From IMG/VR virus record IMGVR_UViG_3300034073_003591, positions 1-56,037 of that record: a stretch of DNA of 56,037 bases; one strand, 5' to 3'. This DNA comes from a virus. The notes under the pieces were generated by a model. It saw only the letters and a program-made list of their open reading frames with translations. It ran no database searches and was not told the DNA's origin. A program made the position numbers and the translations under genes. This document shows, piece by piece, positions 3,412 to 56,037 of the stretch (position 1 is the stretch's first letter; the number at the start of each line of letters is the position of its first letter).

Positions 3412-3695
3412 CACAGACTCTTTCCAGCCCTGCTATTCACAAAATTAATAATATACTCACTGCTTCTATTAGAGCCAATCAAGCGAATTAGTTTCATTCT
3501 AGACCTAGCAGACAAGCCTCCCCAAACACCAAAATACTCTTCATTCTGAACAGCGTGAATAAGACATTCCATTCTCACGGGGCATGATTTGCAGATAGAA
3601 ATAGCATTTTTTGTTGTTTTAGCGTTGTCAACTTCGGGATAAAAAACCGAAGGGTCAACCCCACGACAAACACCTTGATCATACCAATCTTTCAT
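3411..3695 (-). CDS. whiB: WhiB-family [4Fe-4S] transcription regulator
   Basis: 94 aa. It has the four WhiB cysteines C10, C35, C38 and C44 in the family arrangement C...CxxCxxxxxC, followed by the turn motif GVWGG at 56-60 and a basic C-terminus (RSRMKLIR). WhiB-like proteins are actinobacterial Fe-S proteins that bind the primary sigma factor; phage copies alter host transcription. The ATG follows the stop of the upstream gene by 1 nt. It is the strongest single host indicator in the window, together with a second copy at 31473-31769. Confidence 0.95.
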   Translation of the reverse strand: MKDWYDQGVCRGVDPSVFYPEVDNAKTTKNAISICKSCPVRMECLIHAVQNEEYFGVWGGLSARSRMKLIRLIGSNRSSEYIINFVNSRAGKSL

Positions 3696-9984: not shown

Positions 9985-10141
9985 TGCCAACTCCAATCTG
10001 CATTTTGTATTGGTGAAGAATAAAATGGGCAGATAACCTTTGTCCAACAAAGATAACGTTTATACAAGACTTTGATATAAACACACAATGAAGTTTATAC
10101 AGGTTATCCATCACGCCAGGAGTAGCGCTAGCCCATTCCAG
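9985..10141 (-). promoter_or_regulatory. non-coding leader with two GTATAAAC motifs
   Basis: 157 bp without a supported gene between ATG 9984 and the 3' end of the tRNA. On the minus strand GTATAAAC occurs at 10065-10058 and 10100-10093. Both could be -10 elements (TATAAA) for the genes that follow. Directly after the tRNA, GCGCT/AGCGC can pair in a 5-bp stem that could help 3' processing. No convincing -35 was seen. Confidence 0.4.
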
Positions 10142-10214
10142 CGCCCTTAGCAGGATTCGAACCTGCAACCTTATGATTAGAAGTCATCTGCTCTATCCAT
10201 TGAGCTATAAGGGC
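10142..10214 (-). tRNA. tRNA-Arg (anticodon UCU)
   Basis: 73 nt cloverleaf on the minus strand. The acceptor stem GCCCTTA/TAAGGGC has 7 perfect pairs with discriminator G; the D stem is GCTC/GAGC; the anticodon loop CTTCTAA gives UCU; the T arm is GCAGG-TTCGAAT-CCTGC. The anticodon stem has one mismatch at its top pair (27-43, G-A). The CCA is not encoded. UCU reads AGA and AGG, codons favoured in AT-rich genes, so this tRNA probably supports phage codon use. It sits 4 nt downstream of a 26-bp repeat that may be its promoter. Confidence 0.95.
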
Positions 10215-16400: not shown

Positions 16401-16994
16401 TCACTCAATAACTTCAGCATCAGTTATAATTCTATCGTTAAACTGATCTTCTTCATTCATTAATTCGAAAGCAAGAGAAAGTTCCCTTCTTACTTGGTCA
16501 GCTATTTCTGGATGCTGAGAAATAACGTCTCTCAATATTTTTGACAATATATGGTTAACGTTCTCAGCTCTCTGCATTCTTTGAATATATTCTGCATCAG
16601 CATTGTTGCTACCAGACAGTAGACGATGAAGCTGAGCCTTTTTGGTGGCAACATCGCCAGCTAACTTTAAAGCCTGGATCCTTTGAGCAATCATTCCATG
16701 ATCTGTAGCAATTGAAACTGTTTCCCATGCCTCTTTACTTATTTGATCAAACTCATCTAAAGCTTTTATTGTATTGTATTGAAGCTTTTCAAGAAAGTAT
16801 GGATCATGCTCAGCTTGCTGAGCTAGTAGCTTTTTATACTCATCAACATATTTTTTAGCAGTCGCTTGAGGTACAGAGAGCAAAGATGCTATCTCATGGT
16901 TACTGTACCCTTTAACATGCAGAAGGCCAGCTTCAGTTATATCTTTAGCCTGATCTATAATTGTTTTATCTTTTATTGGTTCAATATCTGGCAT
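16401..16994 (-). CDS. terS: terminase small subunit
   Basis: 197 aa. The N-terminal helix-turn-helix GYSNHEIASLLSVPQATAKKY is typical of DNA-recognising TerS proteins. It is followed by helices with an oligomerisation-like pattern and an acidic tail. Placement directly upstream of TerL supports the call. Its start overlaps the end of the GT4 gene by 22 nt. Confidence 0.8.
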   Translation of the reverse strand: MPDIEPIKDKTIIDQAKDITEAGLLHVKGYSNHEIASLLSVPQATAKKYVDEYKKLLAQQAEHDPYFLEKLQYNTIKALDEFDQISKEAWETVSIATDHGMIAQRIQALKLAGDVATKKAQLHRLLSGSNNADAEYIQRMQRAENVNHILSKILRDVISQHPEIADQVRRELSLAFELMNEEDQFNDRIITDAEVIE

Positions 16995-18052
16995 AGCCTA
17001 TCACCGTACTCAGAAACCACAGTATTCCATGAATATTCCTTATGAATAATTTTAGCAGAATTATATGTTTTTTGCTTTATATATTCATAATTATTTGCAA
17101 CCCAAATCATTTTATCGCAAAGATCATCAAAACTAGGAACAGCCCACTCCCCACAATTAGTATAAATACCAAATTGATTTTCATTGCCCCACTTAAAATC
17201 CAGCGGTACTGACATACCAGCATATTCAGTACATGCTGTTGCATTAGTGCATATGGTCGGCAATCCGCAACCGATGGAGTTGAATGGGATCATACCCCAA
17301 CCCTCACCGTTCGTGGGATATATTAAACAATGAGCGGACCTATAAAGATTCCCAAGATCATAATCTGATATTTCATCATCAATAACGAAAACGCGATCAT
17401 GGTTTGATATAGCTCCATGATTCATTGAATCTGTTTTCCATCTTGCATCAGTTGGGCCTACTGATTTAATTATCAATCTATAATTTTTATTGCTTCCAAA
17501 AGTTTTTATGAAAGCATCAAATGCCATTTGAGAATTTTTTCTAGTGGATGGAGAGCCAACATGCAAAAATGTAAACGGACCATCATTAACTTTATCTGAT
17601 GCCCAAAAATAATCAGAGTCAATACCAAGCTTGAAGGCATGAACATTGGAGTGTCCTGTGCTCTCTTGAAAAACCTCCGAAGCCCAAGACGATGTTGTCC
17701 ATATTTCTTGAGATAAATTGATATTTTTAATCCAATTAGAAGGTAACTTATTTGTTTCCCAATAACTAAAACCAATATTATATTTTGTTTTAATTTGATA
17801 ATCAACTGGCAGGCAGTTATTTATCAATACATCACTATCAAGATAGCGGCCAGAAGGTACTTCAAAATACTCGCCATTTGGCGTTATGCACACCAACCTC
17901 TCATGCTCCAAACCAGAAACTAAAATATCCTCTGGACTCAGAATGTCTATTCCTGACATCGTAAGTCCAGAGGATATTTTTCTAGATGCATAACCGTAAC
18001 CGTCAGCTACTTTGTTCGATAAAGCTCTCCAAACGATTCGGCTGTTCATCAT
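16973..18052 (-). CDS. GT4-type glycosyltransferase (GT-B fold)
   Basis: About 359 aa (ATGs at 18052 and 18049). An N-terminal GYGYASRKI loop, central TFLHVGSPSTRKN (donor-domain start) and GEGWGMIPFNSIGCGLP with the E(x7)E-like donor-binding motif define family-4 glycosyltransferases. Retaining sugar transfer expected. It is placed upstream of the terminase genes rather than with the tail genes. It could modify virion proteins or DNA, possibly together with the GT-A enzyme at 12970-13791. Confidence 0.85.
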   Translation of the reverse strand: MMNSRIVWRALSNKVADGYGYASRKISSGLTMSGIDILSPEDILVSGLEHERLVCITPNGEYFEVPSGRYLDSDVLINNCLPVDYQIKTKYNIGFSYWETNKLPSNWIKNINLSQEIWTTSSWASEVFQESTGHSNVHAFKLGIDSDYFWASDKVNDGPFTFLHVGSPSTRKNSQMAFDAFIKTFGSNKNYRLIIKSVGPTDARWKTDSMNHGAISNHDRVFVIDDEISDYDLGNLYRSAHCLIYPTNGEGWGMIPFNSIGCGLPTICTNATACTEYAGMSVPLDFKWGNENQFGIYTNCGEWAVPSFDDLCDKMIWVANNYEYIKQKTYNSAKIIHKEYSWNTVVSEYGDRLCQILNQ

Positions 18053-21617: not shown

Positions 21618-21909
21618 AATCAGATCCGTCAATTAAATCTTTAAACACTTGCCAGTCAATTATAGCAACTTTTACATCAGAATCCTCCCCTAAAACAACA
21701 GAAATACAAGGATATCTGTATTGGCTTCTCCAGGCATCCTTACGATGCTTTAGCCACGCAGCTCTTGTCAAGCTAAAACTAGAGCTATTATGCTTATAAT
21801 CAAGAAGAAATCTATGAAAGGTTGCATCACCCTTCTGGAATCCTCGTCCAGAATTCTTGACCGGCTTAGCGTTATCGATCTTAGCCTCTCTAGCCTCATC
21901 CCTCTTCAT
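21610..21909 (-). CDS. PD-(D/E)XK-like nuclease, Hjc-like
   Basis: 99 aa from ATG 21909 (GGAGG 8 nt upstream). KNSGRGFQKGDATFHRFLLDYKH places D-(x)n-DYK as in the PD-(D/E)XK core, preceded by a Ser-Gly-Arg-Gly loop like archaeal Hjc resolvases. Then SLTRAAWLKHRKDAWRS and strands VVLGE and VAIID. Likely a small recombination or repair endonuclease. It overlaps the end of the RecA gene, so the two are co-translated. Confidence 0.55.
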   Translation of the reverse strand: MKRDEAREAKIDNAKPVKNSGRGFQKGDATFHRFLLDYKHNSSSFSLTRAAWLKHRKDAWRSQYRYPCISVVLGEDSDVKVAIIDWQVFKDLIDGSDYE

Positions 21910-22837
21910 TTTCAGTTCCTCCATTCATAATTTCATTTTGAATATTCATAATATCTGAATCGGACAGATCAATCGAATTCATACCATTCCATTTATTTTC
22001 TTTATATGAGTACCAAGCTCCTCTTCTTTGAATAATATCATTTTCAATTGCAATTTCTATCAGCTCACGCCTTTGATCAATACGCCCCTCTTGAGGAAGA
22101 ACGTAATAGTAGCCCTGTGTTCCAATTGTAGGAAGCTGTTTAGTCTTCTCTATAGTCCAAGACGCCCTCTGGCTGGTAATCTTGTTGGTACGATCTTCTC
22201 TATCCATCTCTTTCTGAGACATAGACAGAAAGAGTTTCACAATATTATGCATATTGTGATGGACTGTGTTGCCCATCTTAGCTTTAGTCACAGCATACAT
22301 TCCACTTAGATCAATCGTTTGATGGGCGATAAAAAGCATGATATTTCGTTCTTTATGAAGATGATTTACTAGCTTTTGGAGAAAGTAGCCTTGAGATCTA
22401 GCTTGTAAACCCATAGCTTTGCCACCGTCTGGCTTATCATAAAACTCTTCTTTGATAATATTTGAAAGACTATCAAATAAGAAAATATGCTTTTCATCTG
22501 GATGGTTTAGGTAGCCAGTCAAATGTCTTAGAATATCTTCAACCACAGTAGACTGCACAAGCACCACATCATTAATATCAATGCCGCACTTTTCAGCGTA
22601 CTGCTCAGAATAAGAATATTCAGAATCAACGATGACAGGTCGATACCCCATTTTCTGGGCCTGAGCGAGAATTCTGAAGCACATAGTTGTCTTACCAACC
22701 GATGGTGTACCCCAAAATAAATGTGTTGCGCCAGTATATAAACCTCCACCTAGCGCAAGGTTTAGACCAAGGCTAGGTGTTGGAATAACCTCATGAATAG
22801 GGACGGTATCGCCTTTACGCTTATCAACAAATAACAT
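21896..22837 (-). CDS. recA: RecA-like recombinase
   Basis: 313 aa. Walker A GTPSVGKTT (43-51), VDSEYSYSEQYAEKCGI (the RecA-family catalytic Glu strand), Walker B IFLFDSLS and an IAHQT strand are in the RecA order. It forms ATP-dependent filaments on ssDNA for strand exchange. It is shorter than bacterial RecA and without its C-terminal lobe, so it is a phage RecA/UvsX-like protein. AAGGAG 5 nt upstream. Confidence 0.9.
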   Translation of the reverse strand: MLFVDKRKGDTVPIHEVIPTPSLGLNLALGGGLYTGATHLFWGTPSVGKTTMCFRILAQAQKMGYRPVIVDSEYSYSEQYAEKCGIDINDVVLVQSTVVEDILRHLTGYLNHPDEKHIFLFDSLSNIIKEEFYDKPDGGKAMGLQARSQGYFLQKLVNHLHKERNIMLFIAHQTIDLSGMYAVTKAKMGNTVHHNMHNIVKLFLSMSQKEMDREDRTNKITSQRASWTIEKTKQLPTIGTQGYYYVLPQEGRIDQRRELIEIAIENDIIQRRGAWYSYKENKWNGMNSIDLSDSDIMNIQNEIMNGGTENEEG

Positions 22838-22854: not shown

Positions 22855-23544
22855 TTAGGGGATCGCTATCCAATTTTCGCCATCGGAATTCTCTATTGAA
22901 TAACCGATGTCATGAAGCATATCAGAAACAGTCCACTCAGCGTCGCAAGACTTGTGATTATTTTCATAACAAATAACCGGACGACACTTTTTTATTGTTT
23001 CAAAAGCGCCACTAACAACATAAGGCTCATAACCTTCAACATCAATCTTTATAAAATCACAAGACATTTTCAAACTATCAATCGTAATCATCTTGACACG
23101 CTCACCACCAGATCCAATAGAGATCCCGGCTAGATTGAAAATATTTTCATCATCATAATAAGCATTTTTAAAAGCGTTAGAGCCATCTTCTGAAAACTTA
23201 TTCATCTCAGCGTCACCAACAAAATGACCAACTGCATTATTATAACAATGGACATCTTCAAGATTATTAGACTTCACATTTTTTACAAGCAAACTATACA
23301 TAGCAGCTTGAGGCTCAAAAGCATAAATCTTACAATTTGGATTTATTCGCTTATAAAGAATCGTGTGTGAGCCACAATGAGCACCCACATCTAGAACTAC
23401 AGAGGACGCTTTTATAAAATCACTTAAATTATCTAGCACGAAATTTTGCTCAAAAAATAAATTATCTTGCTTCTGTTTTAACATCTCTTCGTCATTATCA
23501 AAATACTCTATACTTCCAAACTTATTACTAATAATAAAAGTCAT
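22855..23544 (-). CDS. FkbM-family SAM-dependent methyltransferase
   Basis: 229 aa from ATG 23544, overlapping the DnaE stop (TGATG). VVLDVGAHCGSHT is the SAM-binding loop, KIYAFEP follows, and DFIKIDVEGYEPYVVSGA is the FkbM signature. FkbM enzymes O-methylate sugars and other small acceptors. Together with two glycosyltransferases it suggests that the phage decorates and caps a glycan, either on the virion or on DNA. Substrate unknown. Confidence 0.85.
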   Translation of the reverse strand: MTFIISNKFGSIEYFDNDEEMLKQKQDNLFFEQNFVLDNLSDFIKASSVVLDVGAHCGSHTILYKRINPNCKIYAFEPQAAMYSLLVKNVKSNNLEDVHCYNNAVGHFVGDAEMNKFSEDGSNAFKNAYYDDENIFNLAGISIGSGGERVKMITIDSLKMSCDFIKIDVEGYEPYVVSGAFETIKKCRPVICYENNHKSCDAEWTVSDMLHDIGYSIENSDGENWIAIP

Positions 23545-26500
23545 CACTCTGGCGCTTTCAAGTTTTTTCTATTAATGTAATCTTCAATTGTGATCAGTGA
23601 ATTTTCATTTGCAAAAGTGTAAGAATCAAGCCTAGCCGCTACTTCCAAATCTTTAACGTCATTCAGCTTAGCTGCAAACCACCCGGTCCCACCAATCAAA
23701 TGTCGCATTTTTGCATACATAGATGGGAATACAACAATTTTCAAAGTACGCTCTCCATCCCATGCATACACATTAGCCATATCTTTACCTTTAGCAGTAA
23801 CAAAAGTTCTTGTACTAAAGATATACAAAAGGCTACGATCAGAAAACGCATCACCAAGCCCAGTATCATACAACCATGAATACTCATGATTCTTGTTAAG
23901 ACTTTTGATCTTAGTCAGATTATATAGATCAGAACCAACATAATCGTAAGCATCACAGAACATATGTAAAGTTCTGTCACCGATAAGACAGTACAAAAAA
24001 TCCCTGTTTGCGATCTCAGCATTTCTATCACAGAAAACGCTGACAGACGCTGTCTGGTCCTCCATCTCCACACGCAAATATTTCGGGGTCTTCTTAGTTG
24101 ACCTAATAACAGCTTTCACCATTCTCAGATCAGAATAAATCTCATGGAACCCGTCAATAGGTTCAACAAACTCATCCATCTCGTTATTTGAAGATGACAT
24201 GTTGAAAGCAAAACCAAGAATTGGTAAATAATATTTCTCAAAATCATAAGAAGAAATATAACCAATATTTTGAAAACACCCCACCTTCTCCATGTTTTCT
24301 TTCAAAGGAGCTTTAACTGATGTTTTACTACATTTATTGACAAACTCATCATAAGAAGAATAAGGACGATGTTTAAAAATCTCAGCAATGGCGTTCTTGC
24401 CACATCCAAGAATGTTCTTCAAACCAAAACGAATACCATTCTCATCAATAGAAAAGGATTCGTCAGAAGCATTTACATCAGGAGGCAAAACAGTAATCCC
24501 AAGACGTTCAGCCTCCATCAAGTAAGCCGTAATTTTACTCTTCTCACTTTCATTTGAAAGCATCGACCAAATAAACTCACGAGGATAATTAATCTTCAAC
24601 CACATCGTCTGATATGAGAGCATCGAATAGGCGACAGCGTGCGACTTGTTAAACATATACAAAGCAGCAAGCTCAAAATCAGCCCAAATCTTCTCAGACT
24701 GCTTGCGAGTCAAATAAGTATTGCTACAAAACTTTTCTCTATATTCATCAAAACCTGCAGCATCACGTTTCTTACCAATAATCTTACGAAGCTTATCAGC
24801 CTCAGACCAAGAGAAATCGGCAAGAACAACAGCCATTTGCATAAGCTGTTCCTGAAAGATAACTGTGCCATAAGTGTCAGACAAAATATCTTTTACGACT
24901 TCATGAGGATACTTCGGGGAAGCAACTCCCTTTTTACAATCAATATAAGCCTGACCCTGAGAAAGAAGCGCACCAGGCCGGACCAAGGCGTTGGACACTA
25001 CCAAATCGTTAAAATTGTCGATACCCATTCGATCAATCAAATTGCGATAAGCAGCAGCATCAGCCTGAAATACACCGACAGTATTGCCATCATTAAAATT
25101 CTGGAAAACGGCAACATCGTCAAGTGCTAAAGACTTCTCTGTGACATCGACACCATGAATCTCACGGATCTTTTCAATGCAGTCCTTGATAACAGAAACA
25201 GTCTTCAACCCAAGAATATCAACTTTGATCAAACCAATCGACTCAGCGTCCTCCATATCAAAAGATGTAACAGGAGAACGACCATCACCGGAAGCATTCT
25301 TGCGACTCTCAACAGGACAAATTTCAGTCAAAGGAACAGAAGAAACAACCATACCGGCAGCATGAACACCAGTATTTCGGATACGGCCCTCAAGCTTCTT
25401 GGCAACAGGCAGAACATCCGGATACTTCTTAATAAACACCTTACCTTTATCAGTAGACTGCAACTCATCAAGAGTCTCAAAAAATGGTGTCACACTATTC
25501 GTTTCATCAAAAGGAACCTGAAACACACGGGCGACATCTTTAATAACAGATTTAGGCTTAAAAACACCATAAGTTGCAATAGCAGCAACATTATCAGACC
25601 CCCAACGATCAGACAAATACTGCTTCACCAACTCACGCCGCTTATCCTCAAAATCCAAATCGATATCAGGATAATCATTGCGGTCAGGATTCAAAAAACG
25701 AGAAAAAAGCAACCCATACTTAATCGGATCAACCTTAGAAATATCCAACAAGAAAGCAATAAGAGAACCACCAACAGAACCACGGCCAGGACCACGACCA
25801 ATATTGTTCATATCAGCCCACTTAACCAAATCCCAAACCATCAAGAAATAGTCGGCAAACCCCAATGAAGAAATAATAGAAATCTCTTCACCCAGACGGT
25901 CCAAATAAACCTGACCAGACAACCCCTTGTCTTCAATAGCATTCAAACACAAATCCATCAAATACTGATCGGAATCCAAAGCCTTAATATACTTCGGCAA
26001 AAGATTATTTTTCTTCTTCAACCTAGCAGAACACTTATCCGCAACCTCAACAGTATTTTCAAAATAAGAAACGTCATGAAAACCTTTATCCGCAAACCAC
26101 GACATCACTTCAGAAGCATCGGCAACATAAGGATTAATCTCATCAAACCGCAAAAAACGATCCGGATACATCCTATTAATCATCTCAGTAACATTACCAC
26201 CACCAGACAACTTCTCCTTAGCATTACGAACCTGCGCCGTATTCAAAGAAGGATACTGAGAAATCATCAGCAAAACTTCTTCATCATGAGCATCATGAGC
26301 AGTAGGGAAATGACAATCAGCAGTAGCAACAACTTTCTTCCCAAAAGAAGAAGCAAGATCAATCAAAGACTTATTCAAAGACACAGGATTCCAAGCCTGA
26401 ACCTCATAATAAAAATCATCACCAAAAATACTGATAAAGCGCTCAGACAACCGCTCCGCTTCAGTTAAATCACCACGCTCAATCGCCTTAGAAATAGCGC

Positions 26501-26918
26501 CACCCATACACCCAGACAAAGCAACAACATCACCATCAACTAAATCCTCCAACAAATCAAAATCCAAACGAGGCTTGTAATAAAAATTGTCACCCCAACC
26601 AACACTATTGGCCTTAAACAACTTTCTTAAGCCCTCATCGTTCTTAGCGAGAAGAATCAAATGAAAACGTTCCTGCTTTGAATCAGAATCGCGAGCAACA
26701 GAAGGAACAAAATAAGCCTCAATACCAAACAAAGGACGCACACCAAAAGAATCACAAGCATCCTGAAACTTCAGAACACCACCCATCGTCCCATGATCAG
26801 TAATAGCCGCAGCAAACTGGCCATTAGAAGACGCAACCCTAGCAATATCCAAAGGAGTAGACATCCCATCCAACAAAGAATACTCACTATGACAATGCAA
26901 ATGAACAAAATCAACCAC
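23544..26918 (-). CDS. dnaE: DNA polymerase III alpha subunit (DnaE)
   Basis: 1,124 aa with a GTG start. The N-terminal PHP domain has HLHCHSEYSLLDG (H6, H8, H10) and AAITDHGTMGG. The polymerase core has GRGPGRGSVGGSL and DYPDIDLDFEDKRRE with the catalytic aspartates. The fingers, helix-hairpin-helix region (IRFGLKNILGCGKNAI) and an OB-like C-terminus follow in DnaE order. It probably replaces a family A or B polymerase. Coding strand here is markedly G+T rich compared with the structural genes. Confidence 0.95.
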   Translation of the reverse strand: MVDFVHLHCHSEYSLLDGMSTPLDIARVASSNGQFAAAITDHGTMGGVLKFQDACDSFGVRPLFGIEAYFVPSVARDSDSKQERFHLILLAKNDEGLRKLFKANSVGWGDNFYYKPRLDFDLLEDLVDGDVVALSGCMGGAISKAIERGDLTEAERLSERFISIFGDDFYYEVQAWNPVSLNKSLIDLASSFGKKVVATADCHFPTAHDAHDEEVLLMISQYPSLNTAQVRNAKEKLSGGGNVTEMINRMYPDRFLRFDEINPYVADASEVMSWFADKGFHDVSYFENTVEVADKCSARLKKKNNLLPKYIKALDSDQYLMDLCLNAIEDKGLSGQVYLDRLGEEISIISSLGFADYFLMVWDLVKWADMNNIGRGPGRGSVGGSLIAFLLDISKVDPIKYGLLFSRFLNPDRNDYPDIDLDFEDKRRELVKQYLSDRWGSDNVAAIATYGVFKPKSVIKDVARVFQVPFDETNSVTPFFETLDELQSTDKGKVFIKKYPDVLPVAKKLEGRIRNTGVHAAGMVVSSVPLTEICPVESRKNASGDGRSPVTSFDMEDAESIGLIKVDILGLKTVSVIKDCIEKIREIHGVDVTEKSLALDDVAVFQNFNDGNTVGVFQADAAAYRNLIDRMGIDNFNDLVVSNALVRPGALLSQGQAYIDCKKGVASPKYPHEVVKDILSDTYGTVIFQEQLMQMAVVLADFSWSEADKLRKIIGKKRDAAGFDEYREKFCSNTYLTRKQSEKIWADFELAALYMFNKSHAVAYSMLSYQTMWLKINYPREFIWSMLSNESEKSKITAYLMEAERLGITVLPPDVNASDESFSIDENGIRFGLKNILGCGKNAIAEIFKHRPYSSYDEFVNKCSKTSVKAPLKENMEKVGCFQNIGYISSYDFEKYYLPILGFAFNMSSSNNEMDEFVEPIDGFHEIYSDLRMVKAVIRSTKKTPKYLRVEMEDQTASVSVFCDRNAEIANRDFLYCLIGDRTLHMFCDAYDYVGSDLYNLTKIKSLNKNHEYSWLYDTGLGDAFSDRSLLYIFSTRTFVTAKGKDMANVYAWDGERTLKIVVFPSMYAKMRHLIGGTGWFAAKLNDVKDLEVAARLDSYTFANENSLITIEDYINRKNLKAPE

Positions 26919-49622: not shown

Positions 49623-50216
49623 TCACGCAGTCTGATCAATAATTTTACCGTATTCATAACCAGTATCGGCGGATACTGGAAGAATTCTGAAAGAAACAGC
49701 GAAGGTGGTGGCCTCTGCGCGCTTCATTGAGATCGTTGAAGACTCAAAAGAGATCGCTCTCTTCGTGTTGAACTTACGAGTTCTGGTAGTTGAAGCGTTT
49801 GAACCTGGGGCATTTCCAACAATCTGGATCGCTTTCTCGTATGGATAAACATTTTGAACACCAAACATGAAAGTTTTGGTGTTTGCGCCATCGTTGTTTA
49901 CCAGAACATCTGCGCCGTCATCAGCATTATCATACGACCAAGCAACGGCGAGGTTGTTGAGAGTAGCCTCTGCCATAGTGGTCTTCAACATGACCTTAAC
50001 TTTTGACTGAATTACTTTAGCAGCATCGCCATACTGATCGACTTCAATATCGACCATATCTGGCTCCCAAGAGATTTCCACACCTTCCTGAGTACCACCT
50101 ACTGAGGTAAGGCTATCGAAATCACTGTTTGTCATGCTGGTGTTAGAAGAGCCAATCTTGACTTCCGCTTCACCAACAACAATATTTGCAGTATTAACTG
50201 AACTTGCACCTGGCAT
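49623..50216 (-). CDS. major tail protein
   Basis: 197 aa. SSVNTANIVVGEAEVKIGSS, the DMVDIEVDQYGDAAKVIQSK region and the beta-rich end (SFRILPVSADTGYEYGKIID) match phage major tail tube proteins. Size, position just upstream of the tail chaperones and the strong following terminator all agree. It forms the tail tube. Confidence 0.85.
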   Translation of the reverse strand: MPGASSVNTANIVVGEAEVKIGSSNTSMTNSDFDSLTSVGGTQEGVEISWEPDMVDIEVDQYGDAAKVIQSKVKVMLKTTMAEATLNNLAVAWSYDNADDGADVLVNNDGANTKTFMFGVQNVYPYEKAIQIVGNAPGSNASTTRTRKFNTKRAISFESSTISMKRAEATTFAVSFRILPVSADTGYEYGKIIDQTA

Positions 50217-50227
50217 TTTAAATCCTC

Positions 50228-50431
50228 CTATTCAAGGACAAAAATTCTTTTGCCCCGCTTATCGCGCCATTTAGCGATTTTTTTTACATGGTCTGGCGGT
50301 ATTTCACCTTCACGATTTCCAATAGCCACACCTTTCTGCCATTCAAATTCGTAAACATTTTTACCTACTCTAGCAAAGAACCCCTTGCCAGACCGACCTA
50401 CATATGTAATAGTAGTATACTTCATATCCAT
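50228..50431 (-). CDS. small beta-rich virion protein
   Basis: 67 aa; the second ATG (50425) is possible. Sequence has TYVGRSGKGFFARVGKNVYEF and ends KWRDKRGKRIFVLE. A TGGTATTAT -10-like string lies directly upstream with no SD, giving a possibly leaderless mRNA. Small basic proteins in this place may act at the head-tail joint. Confidence 0.6.
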   Translation of the reverse strand: MDMKYTTITYVGRSGKGFFARVGKNVYEFEWQKGVAIGNREGEIPPDHVKKIAKWRDKRGKRIFVLE

Positions 50432-50444
50432 TTATAATACCATA

Positions 50445-50870
50445 CTATTTAGGAACATAATACAGAATAAACTCTAAATTCATATTAAACCAACCGTCAC
50501 GCTCTATAGATTCACTAACAGAGCTTCCGTTAAAATAAGTAGAAAAAATTCTTGTATCAGTGCCCTCTTTTCCAGAAGACGTTGAAATTTCATCACCTTT
50601 AGATAAAAGATCTATCATTCTCTCACCTATTCTGAGCATCCTATCTATATCTGTATCGTAAATGACATAATTGACAGCATCGTAACGATTCCACCAAGCC
50701 TCAACACTCGGAATGTTATGGTTGATATAGTAAATAACAAAAGGACCAAGCTCTGAGTCTGGCGCAACTATTGGGAAAAATCCTAAACTTTTACCTGAGA
50801 TAGACGATAAAGAAGAGTCCGCCTTTAAGAAAGAGTTTATATCATATACTGCCAATGTATTTATAGTCAT
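50445..50870 (-). CDS. tail terminator-like protein
   Basis: 141 aa. GPFVIYYINHNIPSVEAWWNRYDAVNYVIYDTD followed by a helix IGERMIDLLSK and a final beta strand LEFILYYVPK matches the alpha/beta layout of tail terminators (gpU-like). Located between the connector and the small virion gene, before the major tail protein. Function by fold pattern and order. Confidence 0.6.
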   Translation of the reverse strand: MTINTLAVYDINSFLKADSSLSSISGKSLGFFPIVAPDSELGPFVIYYINHNIPSVEAWWNRYDAVNYVIYDTDIDRMLRIGERMIDLLSKGDEISTSSGKEGTDTRIFSTYFNGSSVSESIERDGWFNMNLEFILYYVPK

Positions 50871-51463
50871 ACTGGGTTATCTCCACGGGTGACTCTTGAA
50901 GTACCACCCCTGCCACCAATCCCCTGGTTTGCAAGAGCCTTCGTCAAATTTTTTTTAAACATTTTGCTTATCATACCACCTGTTATAAACTTTCTAAATT
51001 GATAATTTGGTGACTTAGCTGGTACTGTAAAACCGTAAGCATACTCTATCGCCCCACTGCTCCACTTAACTAGATTGTATGGATCATCTAATTTAGATCT
51101 TTTTGCAGTATATCTCCTTCGACCTCTCAACATTATATTTGCATGAAATCTTGCCCTAGTCGTATCGTTTTGAGTCACTGCATTTGGATTTGGTTCTGCC
51201 CAAAGTACGCTAGCTTTTATTTTTATATTGTTACCATTTATATAAACTTTCACAGGCACAACGTCTTCTCTTGCAAGCTTAGTGTTTCTATAATTAGTTC
51301 TAAGTTTGTCTTTGGTATCTTTTTCAGTTTTTTTTGCTGCATCATGAATAGCTTTATCAATACGATTAGGATAAAGAGCCATGGCGTTCGCTAAATTGTT
51401 AAGACGAGAAATTGAATTCTCATCAAATTCAATTTGAAAATGTCTTCTAGACCTTGCAACCAT
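50867..51463 (-). CDS. neck protein, HK97 gp10-like
   Basis: 198 aa. An N-terminal helix (ALYPNRIDKAIHDAAKKTEKDTKDKL) is followed by RNTKLAREDVVPVKVYING, a long basic loop (MLRGRRRYTAKRSK) and a C-terminal helix (ISKMFKKNLTKALANQG), the pattern of HK97-gp10-type tail-completion proteins. Overlaps its neighbour by 4 nt. Very basic. Confidence 0.65.
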   Translation of the reverse strand: MVARSRRHFQIEFDENSISRLNNLANAMALYPNRIDKAIHDAAKKTEKDTKDKLRTNYRNTKLAREDVVPVKVYINGNNIKIKASVLWAEPNPNAVTQNDTTRARFHANIMLRGRRRYTAKRSKLDDPYNLVKWSSGAIEYAYGFTVPAKSPNYQFRKFITGGMISKMFKKNLTKALANQGIGGRGGTSRVTRGDNPV

Positions 51464-51464
51464 A

Positions 51465-51842
51465 TCAGCTAGCCTCTACAACAAGACGAATCCTGACCAG
51501 GATATGGCTAAGTTTGCCATTCCACCCAGTCCTTCTATTTATTTCAACAATCTCAAATGGACCGGTCACTATAGCTGTATTATATCTATCTTTAATGCCA
51601 TCAATTCTATAGCCATAAGAGAAATAGCTAGCATATGAATGAGGAACTAACACTTCGTACTCATCAATATTTGCAATATAAGGCGTAACTCGTCTCTCAG
51701 ACGAAACTGGCTGGAGAACGCATGGGATTTTTTCTTTATAGACAGACCAGTTGTTATATTTTTGTCCAGCATTGTTTGTTGATGAAATATTTTTATACAA
51801 ATCTAAAACTTGATGATATCTAAAATATGTTTTATATGCCAT
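51465..51842 (-). CDS. head-tail connector (head closure type)
   Basis: 125 aa of mostly beta structure: YHQVLDLYKNISSTNNAGQKYNNW, KIPCVLQPVSS, DEYEVLVPHSYAS, IVTGPFEIVEINRRTGWNG. This beta barrel-like pattern matches head-closure proteins (gp16/Hc1 type). It is encoded directly after the 307-aa connector gene with 1-nt overlap. Confidence 0.6.
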   Translation of the reverse strand: MAYKTYFRYHQVLDLYKNISSTNNAGQKYNNWSVYKEKIPCVLQPVSSERRVTPYIANIDEYEVLVPHSYASYFSYGYRIDGIKDRYNTAIVTGPFEIVEINRRTGWNGKLSHILVRIRLVVEAS

Positions 51843-52765
51843 TACGTTATATAATCCATCACAAAAAGAGTGTAGTCCATTAACAATATATCGGCTTCGA
51901 TATTGCCAGTAGACTCATAGAAATTACCAGCCATAGTGAATCTCATAGTATCCATATCAACGGACGTTAAGGCGTGTCTTCTGTACTCAGAGTCGTCATT
52001 AAGGATATCAAGAATAATAAGCTCAGCCGCCTGCTTTATATTCAATGGCACAAAACGCCATCCAAAATCACCTTCAATTCTATAGTCGGAAACGCTTTTA
52101 AATGTTTGAGTTCTAACTCTATTGGAGCTTGTCTCAGAAACTCCAGACTTATATCTTATAAAATAAGATGACTCAAAATTAAAATTTTGTCTAACTTTCT
52201 CTATATTGTTTAATGTTTCATCTTCAAAATCATGGATGACTTGTGCAACATTGTCACCATAATCAATAGTTACTTTTCTTAAAGTAGATATTGGTAGTGG
52301 AAGATGTAAATTTTTACTATCAGTCCCGTCAATAGTGATTGATTTATCCGGATAAAATTCAAATGTTTGCCCGCAAAAAGTATTTATTATACTTCTAGCT
52401 CTTTTTTCAGCTGAATCAAACACACCTGCAAGAGTAACAAGTTCTGGATGAGACGATGCAAAATCTTCCCAGACTATATATGGTGTATAAACATTGATAT
52501 ATTTAGATTGAGTATAAGATGTTCCAGATATAGAATAATTAAAGTCTATCCTATGAATTCCAGATGAGTTCAAAGAATAAATACCAGAACTGCTCTGTCC
52601 GAAAGTAACAGAATAGACACCATCAGAAACCCTGGTTGCAGAGATATTGCTCTGCACTGTATCTCCAAACTCATGAATTAAGCTCACGGTAACTGCATTT
52701 GAATCTGCATCAGACGGTAGAGTTAAGCTTAAAGTTTTAGAAGTATTTATCTTTACATCATCCAT
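51842..52765 (-). CDS. head-tail adaptor protein with extra N-terminal beta domain
   Basis: 307 aa. The C-terminal two-thirds (EDFASSHPELVTLAGVFDSAEKRARSIINTFCG... FRVPL-like, IKQAAELIILDILN) is a helical adaptor typical of gp15-like connectors. An N-terminal Ig-like beta domain (VTVSLIHEFGDTVQ, GVYSVTFGQSS) of about 95 residues is added. Such decoration on the neck may bind the host surface or stabilise the neck. Position before Hc1 supports it. Confidence 0.65.
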   Translation of the reverse strand: MDDVKINTSKTLSLTLPSDADSNAVTVSLIHEFGDTVQSNISATRVSDGVYSVTFGQSSSGIYSLNSSGIHRIDFNYSISGTSYTQSKYINVYTPYIVWEDFASSHPELVTLAGVFDSAEKRARSIINTFCGQTFEFYPDKSITIDGTDSKNLHLPLPISTLRKVTIDYGDNVAQVIHDFEDETLNNIEKVRQNFNFESSYFIRYKSGVSETSSNRVRTQTFKSVSDYRIEGDFGWRFVPLNIKQAAELIILDILNDDSEYRRHALTSVDMDTMRFTMAGNFYESTGNIEADILLMDYTLFVMDYIT

Positions 52766-52775
52766 TTTTTACACC

Positions 52776-52853
52776 TCAACATGTGCATTCATCGCATCCG
52801 CAATCACAATGTTCACCGCATTCGCACCCACAACTGCACGATTTAGTTCTCAT
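52776..52853 (-). CDS. 25-aa cysteine-rich (metallothionein-like) micropeptide
   Basis: ATG 52853, TGA 52776, strong SD AAGGAG 5-7 nt upstream. The product (MRTKSCSCGCECGEHCDCGC then DECTC) has nine cysteines in 25 residues at 6, 8, 10, 12, 16, 18, 20, 23 and 25, almost all in CxC pairs, plus one histidine and five acidic residues. This is the composition of metal-binding metallothioneins. It lies alone in a 106-bp gap between the head-tail adaptor and a fiber-like gene. Confidence 0.75.
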   Translation of the reverse strand: MRTKSCSCGCECGEHCDCGCDECTC

Positions 52854-52871
52854 AAAATCTCCTTAAATATT

Positions 52872-53534
52872 TTATATATCAAATATAAAACCAAAAGCAT
52901 CAATGATATATTGACCAGCTTGTGATGAATAAATTTTAAATTGTCTTGAACTATTCAGCTTCACAATCGAAAAAGCTGTAATAGCATTACCACTACCTTC
53001 ATAATTTACAGAAGAAACAGATGGTGTTGTGGTGACCGAAGTTGGAACTATTGCAGCAAATCCACCACTTGCACCGGGAATAAATGTAACAGCCAACATT
53101 ATACCATCAGCTCCACTTACAGAAATCCCACCAACAGATGTCGCACAGGTGACTGTTTCAAAAGCCCCTGCTGCTATAGCATTTGCAGTAACAATTCTTG
53201 ATGGTGGATCACATAAAGCAATCTGTGAAAGAGAACTTATACCAAGCGTTGTTCTAGCTTCTGAAGAAGAAGTATCATCTAGCAATGTTTTTGCATATGT
53301 GCTTATTGTTGTTGAGCTTGGAAGTGACAATGTTTTAATATCACTATCAACCTCAGAATCCATCAAAGCACCAGCAGATGTGACATTTGTAGTATCTGTA
53401 ACATCAGCATTAGCTTCAACACCATCAAGCTTACTTCCATCAGTAGAGAGATCTCTACCATCGACAGTCCCCCCAACAAGAATGTTGTTCAAAACCTCAA
53501 TATTTTTATATCTTCCAGAAAGATTTTTTATCAT
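52872..53534 (-). CDS. fiber-like structural protein
   Basis: 220 aa. ILVGGTVDGRDLSTDGSKLDGVEANADVTDTTNV is a sequence module common in phage structural proteins and fibers, followed by a beta-rich Ser/Gly/Thr domain. Ends DAFGFIFDI. It lies between the head and neck genes, so it may be a head fiber. Overlaps the next gene by 4 nt. Confidence 0.65.
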   Translation of the reverse strand: MIKNLSGRYKNIEVLNNILVGGTVDGRDLSTDGSKLDGVEANADVTDTTNVTSAGALMDSEVDSDIKTLSLPSSTTISTYAKTLLDDTSSSEARTTLGISSLSQIALCDPPSRIVTANAIAAGAFETVTCATSVGGISVSGADGIMLAVTFIPGASGGFAAIVPTSVTTTPSVSSVNYEGSGNAITAFSIVKLNSSRQFKIYSSQAGQYIIDAFGFIFDI

Positions 53535-53863
53535 GCAACATACTCCACACCGCTAACAGTCAGTGTCAAGTTTGAATCTACTGGATCAAAATACACTGAG
53601 CCACCAGCATTTAAAACAAAAATTGTGTCAGAAACTATTACATCATTAGCTGGCACAGATATGTTGCTCATCACCTTGTTATTAGCACCAGCAGATCCTG
53701 ATGCCGGAACTATATGTAATGAAAAAGTTTTATCTGTACCTGAAGTATTGCAAACGTTAATAGTCCGCAAAATAGCATAAGATCCGACATTTGAAGAAGC
53801 CGTATATACATTAGAAGCTGTATCATTACCTATATATAGAAGTTTTGGTACAATATTAGCCAT
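53531..53863 (-). CDS. beta-rich virion protein
   Basis: 110 aa. Ends with SNLTLTVSGVEYVA and contains RTINVCNTSGTDKTFSLHIVP and GGSVYFDP, a pattern of small beta-sandwich proteins present in phage heads (for example phage decoration or fiber knob modules). No stronger clue. Confidence 0.6.
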   Translation of the reverse strand: MANIVPKLLYIGNDTASNVYTASSNVGSYAILRTINVCNTSGTDKTFSLHIVPASGSAGANNKVMSNISVPANDVIVSDTIFVLNAGGSVYFDPVDSNLTLTVSGVEYVA

Positions 53864-53866
53864 AAA

Positions 53867-54217
53867 TTATCCCCCGATCCCACTCCATAAAAGTATGGAA
53901 TTATTAAAAGTTGTATTATTCATGCTCTGCACAGCTATTGCGTCTAAAACATGATCTATTTTTTCGCCCGAAGTATGGGCGCTGGCTGATGTGCCATCGT
54001 AACCTCGTTGCACAGCTGTTATTGTATTTCCCGACCTGTCTGAGCAAAGAACTTTTTCTTCACTAGAAAATCCCTTGTTAATAACAATAACAAAATTGTT
54101 ACTATCCCCTGTTGGATAAGATGAACCATCAGCAACAGTTATAGATGTATCTGAATCTGAAATCCCGGCAGTTAAAGAAGTTTCCTCAACAGCGCCACTA
54201 AACTCTCTTCTTTCCAT
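53867..54217 (-). CDS. beta-rich virion protein, GYDGTSASAHTSG type
   Basis: 116 aa from ATG 54217 (AAGGA 6 nt upstream). TSLTAGISDSDTSITVADGS, FVIVINKGFSSEEKVLCSDRSGNTI and VQRGYDGTSASAHTSGEKIDH form a beta module that is also found in the large tail protein of this phage (ERGMFGTTATSHTADS). Probably a head or neck appendage protein. Confidence 0.65.
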   Translation of the reverse strand: MERREFSGAVEETSLTAGISDSDTSITVADGSSYPTGDSNNFVIVINKGFSSEEKVLCSDRSGNTITAVQRGYDGTSASAHTSGEKIDHVLDAIAVQSMNNTTFNNSILLWSGIGG

Positions 54218-54225
54218 AAGCATCC

Positions 54226-54609
54226 TTAGTCAATTGACACAATAATATCGCCGGTCTGCGCTCTAAAAATATCTCCAGCATCTAAAGTTTTATTTACAGC
54301 TAAATCTCCATAAACAAGTAGATTGCCAGAAGTCAAAGCGTCAAAAACACCAACAGCCACAACAGTACAGGCTGGCATACCTGTAAAATCAACATTGGAG
54401 TCGTTCGAAGTAGTTCCACCGCTAGAAGATAAAAAGGTGATAGGTTTTCTTGCATAAGACCCACCAGTCACCTCTGTGCCACCACCAGCATCTGTCGGGG
54501 CGACTGTATAGAGTGCAAGATATACAGTTGAAGGCATCGTGTAAGAAGTCGTGCCAAGAAAATGATCAAGGATCTTATTCTCAAGATAATTACTTAAATT
54601 ACCGGCCAT
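54226..54609 (-). CDS. virion protein, TMPSTVYLALYTVAPTDAG family
   Basis: 127 aa. NLSNYLENKILDHFLG and SYTMPSTVYLALYTVAPTDAG, followed by GGSYARKPITF, is a signature of small phage structural proteins usually annotated as tail-fiber- or decoration-like. Ends with FRAQTGDIIVSID. Overlaps the next gene by 1 nt. Confidence 0.75.
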   Translation of the reverse strand: MAGNLSNYLENKILDHFLGTTSYTMPSTVYLALYTVAPTDAGGGTEVTGGSYARKPITFLSSSGGTTSNDSNVDFTGMPACTVVAVGVFDALTSGNLLVYGDLAVNKTLDAGDIFRAQTGDIIVSID

Positions 54610-54971
54610 CAGGTGTTCTCCTTATAATATTGCTCCATCTCAATCTGATTAGGAATTCTAAAATTATCAAAATTTAGAAGATGATCGGCCTCATCAATAG
54701 GAAGTTCATAAATTCTATTCTCCGGAGAAAATCTAAAACCACCCTTGGTCACATAAGCTGACCCGCTATCAAAGTAGATAAACTTTGTATCTATCTTTTT
54801 TTGATTAGGAGATTGCTTCTTAGGAGCTGACCTTTTAGCTGCAACTTTTTTAGCAGGAGGTGTTTCAGAATCTTGCCCACCAACAGCACCATCATCTAAA
54901 CCCGCATCATCATCACTCTCAGATGTCGATGAAACATTCACATCAGTCGATTTAATTACATTATTACTCAT
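54609..54971 (-). CDS. hypothetical head-region protein, leaderless candidate
   Basis: 120 aa. N-terminal 60 residues are disordered, acidic then basic (SESDDDAGLDDGAVGGQDSE, then AKKVAAKRSAPKKQSP); the C-terminus is beta-rich (FIYFDSGSAYVTKGG). The start ATG is 6 nt after TGATAATAT with no SD. Follows the capsid terminator. Confidence 0.65.
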   Translation of the reverse strand: MSNNVIKSTDVNVSSTSESDDDAGLDDGAVGGQDSETPPAKKVAAKRSAPKKQSPNQKKIDTKFIYFDSGSAYVTKGGFRFSPENRIYELPIDEADHLLNFDNFRIPNQIEMEQYYKENT

Positions 54972-54977
54972 ACAATA

Positions 54978-54986
54978 ATATTATCA
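54978..54986 (-). promoter_or_regulatory. extended -10 promoter placed for leaderless translation
   Basis: TGATAATAT on the minus strand, then TATTGT, then ATG 54971. Same layout as at 13798 and 32602. It is 22 bp downstream of the capsid terminator, so it restarts transcription for head and tail genes. Confidence 0.6.
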
Positions 54987-55007
54987 TAATTGAAGTTATA
55001 AGAACAG

Positions 55008-55034
55008 AAAAAGGCGGTGATTTTACTCACCGCC
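55008..55034 (-). terminator. intrinsic terminator after the major capsid protein
   Basis: GGCGGTGA-GTAAAA-TCACCGCC followed by TTTTT on the minus strand. Eight-bp GC-rich stem. It separates the abundant capsid transcript from the following genes. Confidence 0.9.
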
Positions 55035-55050
55035 CCTCTCTGTAGGACTA

Positions 55051-55070
55051 TAACTATAACGGCCCTAAGG
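55051..55070. other. 23S rRNA-like 20-mer in the capsid mRNA 3' region
   Basis: Plus strand reads TAACTATAACGGCCCTAAGG. The conserved 23S rRNA segment that is also the start of the I-CeuI homing site reads TAACTATAACGGTCCTAAGG, so 19 of 20 bases agree. The capsid mRNA carries the opposite strand here, so it would be antisense to 23S with a G-U pair at the one difference. It lies between the capsid stop codon and the terminator. Confidence 0.6.
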
Positions 55071-55076
55071 CTTTTA

Positions 55077-56037
55077 TCAGCTACGAAGCTTGACGTTCTT
55101 AGCGATTACGTAGCTATCAGCATTCTCAATGTTGCAAGCAACACGCATATACTGAGTGTACTCAATAGTGTCAGTCTTAGGCTGGAACTCGCGGTATACC
55201 GTGATGTCCCGGTGAAGACCAACAACTCGGTTATTGGGGAAAGTCAATTCAACATAACCATGTGAACCGGCAGCGCCAGAGTAGTCTCCAGAAACAGCCT
55301 CTGGCATTAGAGGAACTTCAATAAGCCCGATACCGAATGGAGCAAGGCCAGTCGAACCAACACCGCCATTTGCACGCATAGCCCCGTTCAAGAAAGCCAT
55401 GTCGCCAGTGGTTGAACCTGGGCTTGGAGCACCAGCGGTAGCCTCTGTTGCAGAGTTAGGATTCTGTAGTGAGTAGATTGCATCCTGAACAATGCCTGGG
55501 CCAGTAAAGAACCGAAGCTCATTACGACGCTGAAGATACTTGTTGGGGAGATTACGCAGAACCCGATCGAATACCGAACGAGAAACGTTGTCGCCACCCT
55601 CATCAACCGTGGTGCCGCTAGCAAGAGCTAGCTTAACAAAACCGTCAAGAGCCTTAAGCAAGGTATTCGAAGACGAAGTGTTGCCGTTGATGAGAAGATC
55701 GTCAAGATCGTTCGCAGTCTGGCGAGCCATGACTTGAGCGAGATGATCCTCAAGCGAAGAACCCTCAATGTTGTCCTCTAGAGACTCGGTTGAGACTTCC
55801 CAGTCAAGACGAAGTTTGACGCTGGTGAGCGAAACCTTTGAAAAGGTTACCGCTGCGTTGGTGCCATCATCAGTAGCTTCAGTTGCCTTCCGCATGATTC
55901 TAGTTCCAACTGACATCTTATCGATGTCCATAGTAGGTGTCCGCATCCGAACGACGCGGCTATTTTGCATAAGAACAGACTGATCGACCACGAAATCAAG
56001 GAAGCGATTAGACTGTTCAGCGTTAAGAAGGCAACTG
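55077..56037 (-). CDS. major capsid protein (HK97-like), partial at window edge
   Basis: At least 304 aa visible from the GTG at 55991, but the frame remains open upstream to the window end (LNAEQSNRFLDFVVDQSVL), typical of HK97-like capsids. So the true start lies outside. IDKMSVGTRIMRKAT, WEVSTESLEDNIEG and VELTFPNNRVVGLHRDITV match the family. It forms the capsid shell; portal and protease should follow beyond 56 kb. A strong terminator follows. Confidence 0.9.
   Translation of the reverse strand, partial: SCLLNAEQSNRFLDFVVDQSVLMQNSRVVRMRTPTMDIDKMSVGTRIMRKATEATDDGTNAAVTFSKVSLTSVKLRLDWEVSTESLEDNIEGSSLEDHLAQVMARQTANDLDDLLINGNTSSSNTLLKALDGFVKLALASGTTVDEGGDNVSRSVFDRVLRNLPNKYLQRRNELRFFTGPGIVQDAIYSLQNPNSATEATAGAPSPGSTTGDMAFLNGAMRANGGVGSTGLAPFGIGLIEVPLMPEAVSGDYSGAAGSHGYVELTFPNNRVVGLHRDITVYREFQPKTDTIEYTQYMRVACNIENADSYVIAKNVKLRS

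Follow-up and report, generated by a model that had tools for sequence, protein, structure and literature searches.

The animal metallothionein β domain has a CxC-rich layout. The fungal copper metallothioneins, which are eukaryotic, are likewise CxC-rich, with seven cysteines in about 25 residues, and the bacterial metallothioneins, of which MymT is one, are about twice as long as the phage peptide described here. Nine cysteines can bind three zinc ions as a Zn3Cys9 cluster, an arrangement that a passage of PMC3447885 gives for metallothioneins, the CXC domain of MSL2 and pre-SET domains, and that part of PMC10243857 gives for metallothionein β domains. In the CXC and pre-SET domains, as that passage of PMC3447885 has it, the nine cysteines fall within about 50 residues and two loops surround the cluster; MSL2 binds DNA. 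Bacterial metallothioneins act as zinc buffers at the very low levels of free zinc that bacterial cells contain, and are well folded, with histidine residues common (a section of PMC10612145). Regulatory short ORFs rich in cysteine exist in mycobacteria, according to part of PMC9094748. We found no phage metallothionein family in the literature (open-licence PMC papers); in PMC3974807 the term occurs in a table of bacterial genes.

Here we describe a 25-residue phage peptide with nine cysteines, encoded in a 56,037-nucleotide stretch of viral DNA (IMG/VR record IMGVR_UViG_3300034073_003591, hereafter the window). This 56 kb record is likely a fragment because its capsid gene is cut by the record end. 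Translation of positions 52853 to 52776 on the minus strand gives MRTKSCSCGCECGEHCDCGCDECTC; the plus-strand reading of the same positions differs. Eight steps separate the cysteines: six CxC, one CxxxC and one CxxC. The peptide gene is shorter than most gene finders will call; it fits into the gap between a 220-residue fibre-like gene and a 307-residue adaptor gene, and the sequence GAGGTG precedes the adaptor ATG at 52765 (Table 1).

Table 1. Positions, strands and assignments of the features discussed; coordinates refer to the window unless another contig is named.
Feature	Position	Strand	Remarks
Micropeptide gene	52776..52853	-	25 residues, 9 Cys: CxCxCxCxxxCxCGCxxCxC, Cys-terminal
Shine-Dalgarno AAGGAG of the peptide gene	52859..52864	-	5 nt before ATG
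TGA stop (52778-52776) overlapping GAGGTG, likely adaptor ribosome site	52772..52778	-	
Head-tail adaptor, 307 aa, next downstream	51842..52765	-	PHROG 442 head-tail adaptor 1.5e-6; PHROG 33253 5.6e-12
Tail-fibre-like protein, 220 aa, upstream of the peptide	52872..53534	-	PHROG 892 tail fiber 1.4e-11
Major-capsid-like protein, cut by window end, marks upstream head block	55077..56036	-	PHROG 1623 virion structural protein 2e-77
Glycosyltransferase gene	16973-18052		
FkbM-type methyltransferase gene	22855-23547		
Micropeptide, 29 residues	L422 from about 2463; L441 from about 9976	+	by eye

The ORF does not arise by chance. Among ORFs of 15–60 residues (about 1254 per shuffled window), 100 dinucleotide shuffles of the window produced none with at least five CxC pairs, and the window has one. 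ORFs with at least nine cysteines occurred three times across all 100 shuffles, and ORFs with at least 30% cysteine five times; the window holds one of each. These shuffles, together with the conservation data, rule out a chance ORF, and we regard conservation as the decisive evidence that the nine-cysteine ORF is a real gene. A first-pass annotation had reported an ORF of this length and cysteine number, with a Shine-Dalgarno site, in the gap between the adaptor and fibre genes; it is indeed there, on a strand that the annotation left unstated. The annotation had also argued against chance, and had expected a spurious ORF to be lost from relatives that share the flanking genes; in those relatives the ORF is kept. 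Its description of the peptide as metallothionein-like is apt for the cysteine content and spacing: 9 of 25 residues, about a third, are cysteine, both CxC and CxxC motifs are present and hydrophobic residues are few, the make-up of the metallothionein class.

We scanned IMG/VR with the adaptor and the capsid as baits, keeping the best 80 relatives for each. The peptide gene stands ahead of the adaptor in L002 to L007 and in L097, and ahead of a different gene in L131, L146 and L153. Lax cysteine filters that presuppose no spacing recovered the same nine-cysteine core in the family copies among these 160 capsid- and adaptor-found loci (the filters also let through three minus-strand ORFs, in L054, L058 and L060, that are unrelated), and a spacing-free filter applied to 80 endolysin-found loci gave 22 positives, all with this core. 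No degenerate copies were found by these laxer screens of flank-found loci. A fixed-spacing search that allowed two mismatches matched 9 of 56 whole records of relatives, every one with zero mismatches; the other 47 records, many of which are fragments, had no match.

A motif scan of IMG/VR for all nine cysteines, the conserved glycine, an acidic residue and the stop, which presupposes nine cysteines at fixed spacing, returned 67 contigs with 35 distinct peptides. Relaxing the query to the last five cysteines and the stop gave 71 stretches, of which 67 have all nine cysteines at identical spacing; the other four have no start codon and look like chance. Family members are about 23–33 residues long, and all the contigs that bear them are metagenomic. 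A lysine two residues before the first cysteine is nearly invariant across the 35 peptides, and all 18 distinct cores from flank-found loci keep the glycine between cysteines 6 and 7. One peptide form, present in 5 of the 67 contigs, has a tenth core cysteine, so that nine is not an upper limit and an odd count is not universal; the reading from L188 has one extra cysteine ahead of the core.

The 18 flank-found cores also show how the gene evolves. All 162 of 162 core cysteine codons are kept, and both TGT and TGC are used at each of the nine positions. Counting single-base pairwise differences, which are not independent events, we found 663 synonymous and 0 nonsynonymous at cysteine codons, as against 313 synonymous and 380 nonsynonymous at the remaining codons (uncorrected pN/pS 0.52). 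Because the cysteine codons are invariant despite the mixture of TGT and TGC, and pN/pS elsewhere is about 0.5, the peptide is, as judged from its codons, a protein under selection.

What might such a protein do? Nine mainly-CxC thiolates, with acidic and glycine spacers and without a hydrophobic core, point to a metal-thiolate cluster. The CxC spacing fits metal thiolates, from which we infer that the peptide binds metal, and nine conserved cysteines (the ten-cysteine form excepted) is the number found in Zn3Cys9 cluster domains. Like the animal β domain, the peptide places nine cysteines in a short stretch; unlike the animal metallothioneins it stands alone, with no α domain and no sequence match found. 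The bacterial metallothioneins SmtA and PflQ2MT are likewise small, cysteine-rich and prokaryotic, whereas the gene described here is borne by phages, lies near lysis genes and has no Pfam or NCBIfam match. The fungal copper metallothioneins are alike in length and CxC-rich make-up, which is a resemblance only. The CXC (MSL2, tesmin/TSO1) and pre-SET Zn3Cys9 domains share the nine invariant cysteines, as far as the source passage describes them, and we found no sequence match between them and the phage peptide. Profile searches gave no family in Pfam or NCBIfam for six members at E up to 10, and none in PHROGs, such short peptides being hard for HMMER; PDB sequences likewise gave no match at E up to 10, again a hard case at this length. 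An AlphaFold2 model of a 33-residue relative (mean pLDDT 68.7, pTM 0.27) is uninformative.

The genomic neighbourhood of the peptide is informative. Within 1.3 kb upstream, 60 of the 67 contigs have an endolysin-like or nuclease-like (SNase-like) gene. Using queries drawn from these same peptide loci, we matched the endolysin in 58 contigs and the SNase in 6 (both in 4), and neither in 7. In L440 and L447 the upstream neighbour is only a short peptidoglycan-binding-like protein. The window's phage is itself among the seven exceptions. One of these (L404) is cut by the contig end; five (L407, L427, L428, L432 and L453) have a neighbour of 61–65 residues, membrane-like by eye in those inspected; and the last (L436) has compared genes 100% identical to those of the window. 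Among the upstream genes, Pfam recognizes VanY in L439, PG_binding_1 in L411, L417, L439 and L188, an Rv2525c-like domain in L188, and SNase in L426 and L441; the short L217 endolysin has no Pfam match. An extra gene lies between the endolysin and the cysteine peptide in two contigs: in L463, otherwise like L460, the endolysin ends at 3522 and the peptide follows about 250 nt on, and in L446 the extra gene encodes 84 residues and looks membrane-like by eye.

The start of the peptide gene overlaps or abuts the upstream stop (from 4 nt before to 3 nt after the end of that stop) in 17 of 39 distinct copies, 16 of them with an M15, VanY or SNase gene and one (L405) unclassed. Of the other distinct copies, 18 have a Shine-Dalgarno-like site and 4 have neither such a site nor coupling, so that 35 of the 39 starts are coupled to the upstream stop or preceded by a Shine-Dalgarno-like site. 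On the downstream side, within 640 nt, the neighbour is the adaptor in 20 of the 67 contigs, a putative tail protein of about 111 residues in 45, and neither in two (L422 and L441). The adaptor and the 111-residue protein are unrelated. The L217 form of the latter matches PHROG 1084 (unknown function) and, more weakly, a tail-fibre assembly family. Many relatives (L082:3 onward, L087, L089, L093, L101, L111–L116 and L118) have further homologues of the 111-residue putative tail gene, several kb upstream of the capsid gene, which suggests a duplicated or relocated module.

The reading that we prefer, and hold to be somewhat probable, is that the peptide is a micro-metallothionein, expressed along with the lysis and tail genes, and that it buffers zinc or copper in the infected cell as it lyses. 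The peptide would be translated within the lysis-plus-tail gene block, presumably late, and ribosomes would often come straight off the endolysin or nuclease gene onto it. Its nine thiolates would then enclose a small cluster of metal, in the simplest case three zinc ions as Zn3Cys9 and otherwise Cu(I), and the peptide would have little fold beyond that cluster. Once formed, it could buffer free zinc or copper as the cell lyses, either protecting the infected cell in general or controlling the metal of the neighbouring enzyme. Several observations count against this reading: the profile and PDB searches gave no match, the ten-cysteine form departs from the count of nine, a related clade has similar endolysin genes without the peptide, and no recognizable endolysin lies near the peptide in the window's own phage.

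If the peptide does bind metal, it would be one of the smallest metallothioneins and, within what was searched, the first to form a conserved gene family in phages. Selection would then act on metal handling while these phages infect their hosts, and the coupling to lysis enzymes in many relatives would connect metal ions with lysis in a way that can be tested. At 25 residues the peptide is a concrete target that can be synthesized and assayed. More generally, the family shows that motif scans of viral metagenomes can recover functional phage genes as short as 23–33 codons.

The overlapping gene pairs make a closer relationship attractive, in which the co-translated peptide controls its enzyme neighbour, supplying metal to a zinc M15/VanY endolysin or a nuclease, or withholding it, and so timing or restraining activity. 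Most of the upstream endolysins carry an M15/VanY zinc-peptidase-like signature (SxHxTGxAxD and WxHxE). In 46 of the 67 contigs, an M15 or VanY signature is present in the longest gene whose end lies no more than 300 nt upstream; of the 26 distinct copies with such a gene, 14 overlap or abut it. The pairing with SNase is seen again in L422 and L441, where the surrounding genes differ and the overlap is 1 nt. However, the enzymes with which the peptide is paired (M15 type, Rv2525c-like hydrolase, SNase) are chemically unrelated. Moreover, such endolysins are common without the peptide, and these relatives, together with the window's phage, which has no such neighbour, weaken the idea to the point where we consider it doubtful. 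A broader version, to which we give a little less credence, is a metal-gated lysis module, in which a co-translated micro-metallothionein would set the metal state of its partner or of the cell and thereby time lysis or DNA clean-up. If true, this module would represent a class of phage gene that gene finders miss, being about 25 codons long.

The loci without the peptide bear directly on these ideas. Of the 80 endolysin-found loci, 58 have no peptide (three of the 58 have less than 400 nt of downstream sequence), and those of them that were read have other gene surroundings. None of the 24 distinct rows of the related clade, whose endolysin and tail genes are similar, has the peptide. In 19 adaptor relatives read closely, roughly 30 nt separate the endolysin-like gene from the 111-residue-type gene after it, too short a gap to hold the peptide. 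A tree built from 42 distinct adaptors (18 with the peptide, 24 without) needs a single change of the presence label, with support 100/99, in a non-random sample: the rows with the peptide come partly from motif-selected contigs, those without were picked because endolysin, tail gene and adaptor are all present, and peptide-less records found via the capsid gene are left out. Within that sample, as the tree reads, the peptide gene has been retained across deep divergence, with one loss or one gain. The adaptor tree does not bear out a patchy, mobile gene, one change of state being sufficient.

The L217 endolysin, the 111-residue protein and a 501-bp stretch round the L217 peptide had no match in 50,697 phage records; nor did the window peptide by tblastn in the same records, perhaps because a low-complexity filter removed it. 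In the isolated Streptomyces phages NootNoot and Phredrick, the capsid is followed by one gene and then the adaptor, with no annotated gene in between that could be the peptide. In 394 genomes of one actinobacterial class, the peptide had 0 matches at one mismatch. Plain cysteine-spacing scans of viral and genome contigs were swamped by TGC/TGT trinucleotide repeats, and a single tail protein used as bait returned only two loci. SNase-like genes are common among isolated phages (603 records); with SNase as bait, the best 80 of 582 relatives contained three ORFs of less than 80 residues that pass the cysteine filter, none family-like by eye.

The first-pass annotation had placed the peptide in the head-tail module and had considered a role in the virion. 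We think it very improbable that the peptide travels in the particle or is injected from it, with a place near the neck or fibres where it would hold metal or protect thiols on entry. It does stand ahead of the adaptor or the putative tail gene in 65 of the 67 contigs, but the more constant neighbour is the lysis or nuclease gene upstream. Downstream there are two alternatives, unrelated to each other, and L422 and L441 have neither of them. Relatives with similar structural genes are cleanly without the peptide, and no match came from 47 of the 56 whole records noted above, many of which are fragments. A part in head-tail morphogenesis as such was rejected, since the neighbours change among relatives.

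Still less credible to us is a thiol or redox buffer, or an inhibitor that acts on a host protein through a zinc cluster, in place of metal storage. The acidic cysteine cluster is strongly conserved, and the lysine two before the first cysteine is present in most members; the nine-cysteine CxC layout, however, does not suggest a disulfide framework. A disulfide-rich secreted peptide was rejected: the cysteine layout and the nine core cysteines (one ten-cysteine form excepted) are against it. By eye, the peptides have no hydrophobic N-terminal stretch that would serve as a signal peptide, except perhaps in L188, where the start is doubtful.

The least likely of the alternatives, in our estimation, is a cysteine-sensing leader ORF, in which ribosomes stalling at cysteine codons would control the next gene, as in mycobacteria. 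The ORF is short, cysteine-rich and upstream of another gene, its stop overlaps the next ribosome site, the phage's relatives infect actinobacteria, and the mycobacterial polycysteine short ORFs are similar in these respects as far as part of PMC9094748 describes them; by contrast, all copies of the phage peptide found without presupposed spacing keep that spacing, its non-cysteine codons are also constrained, it has a ribosome-binding site or upstream coupling, and it stands ahead of two unrelated genes. An RNA switch in the leader was rejected on the same codon ratio (pN/pS 0.52) and on the RNA itself: the window has no stable structure (fold z 0.29), and its one terminator-like site is not at the junction.

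L422 and L441 deserve separate description. Both have a shorter form of the peptide, starting MFF or MFI, after an SNase-like gene that it overlaps by 1 nt. Directly after the cysteine peptide, both contigs have a hydrophobic micropeptide that resembles a single membrane span (Table 1). By eye, the capsid-like gene of L441 resembles that of the window, and L441 therefore probably belongs to the wider lineage, with the SNase–peptide pair at another place.

Among the matches listed, the window's capsid gene is about 66–69% identical by blastn to capsid genes of Streptomyces phages, and the adaptor and major tail proteins match Streptomyces phages by tblastn at 25–30% and 38–44%, respectively. 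Two of the matched phages are placed in the Stanwilliamsviridae, and these homologous capsid, adaptor and major tail genes would assign the window's phage to a Stanwilliamsviridae-like lineage. The host may be an actinobacterium, judging only from these distant relatives; phages of freshwater actinobacteria exist, according to part of PMC10202952. For window positions 50000–56037, 5 phage records match some part at 80–95% identity and 106 at 60–80%, and Podophage and Lauvirus records are among the organisms tallied. Neither the 56-kb window nor a 70-kb contig that shares the region, both of them fragments, has a recognizable M15/VanY-type or PG_binding endolysin, so that the lysis gene of the window's phage would lie elsewhere or be of another kind. 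Elsewhere in the window there is a single tRNA-Arg (tct) gene at 10141–10214, and the gene for the FkbM-type methyltransferase sits between those for DNA polymerase III alpha (23544–26918) and RecA (21896–22837).
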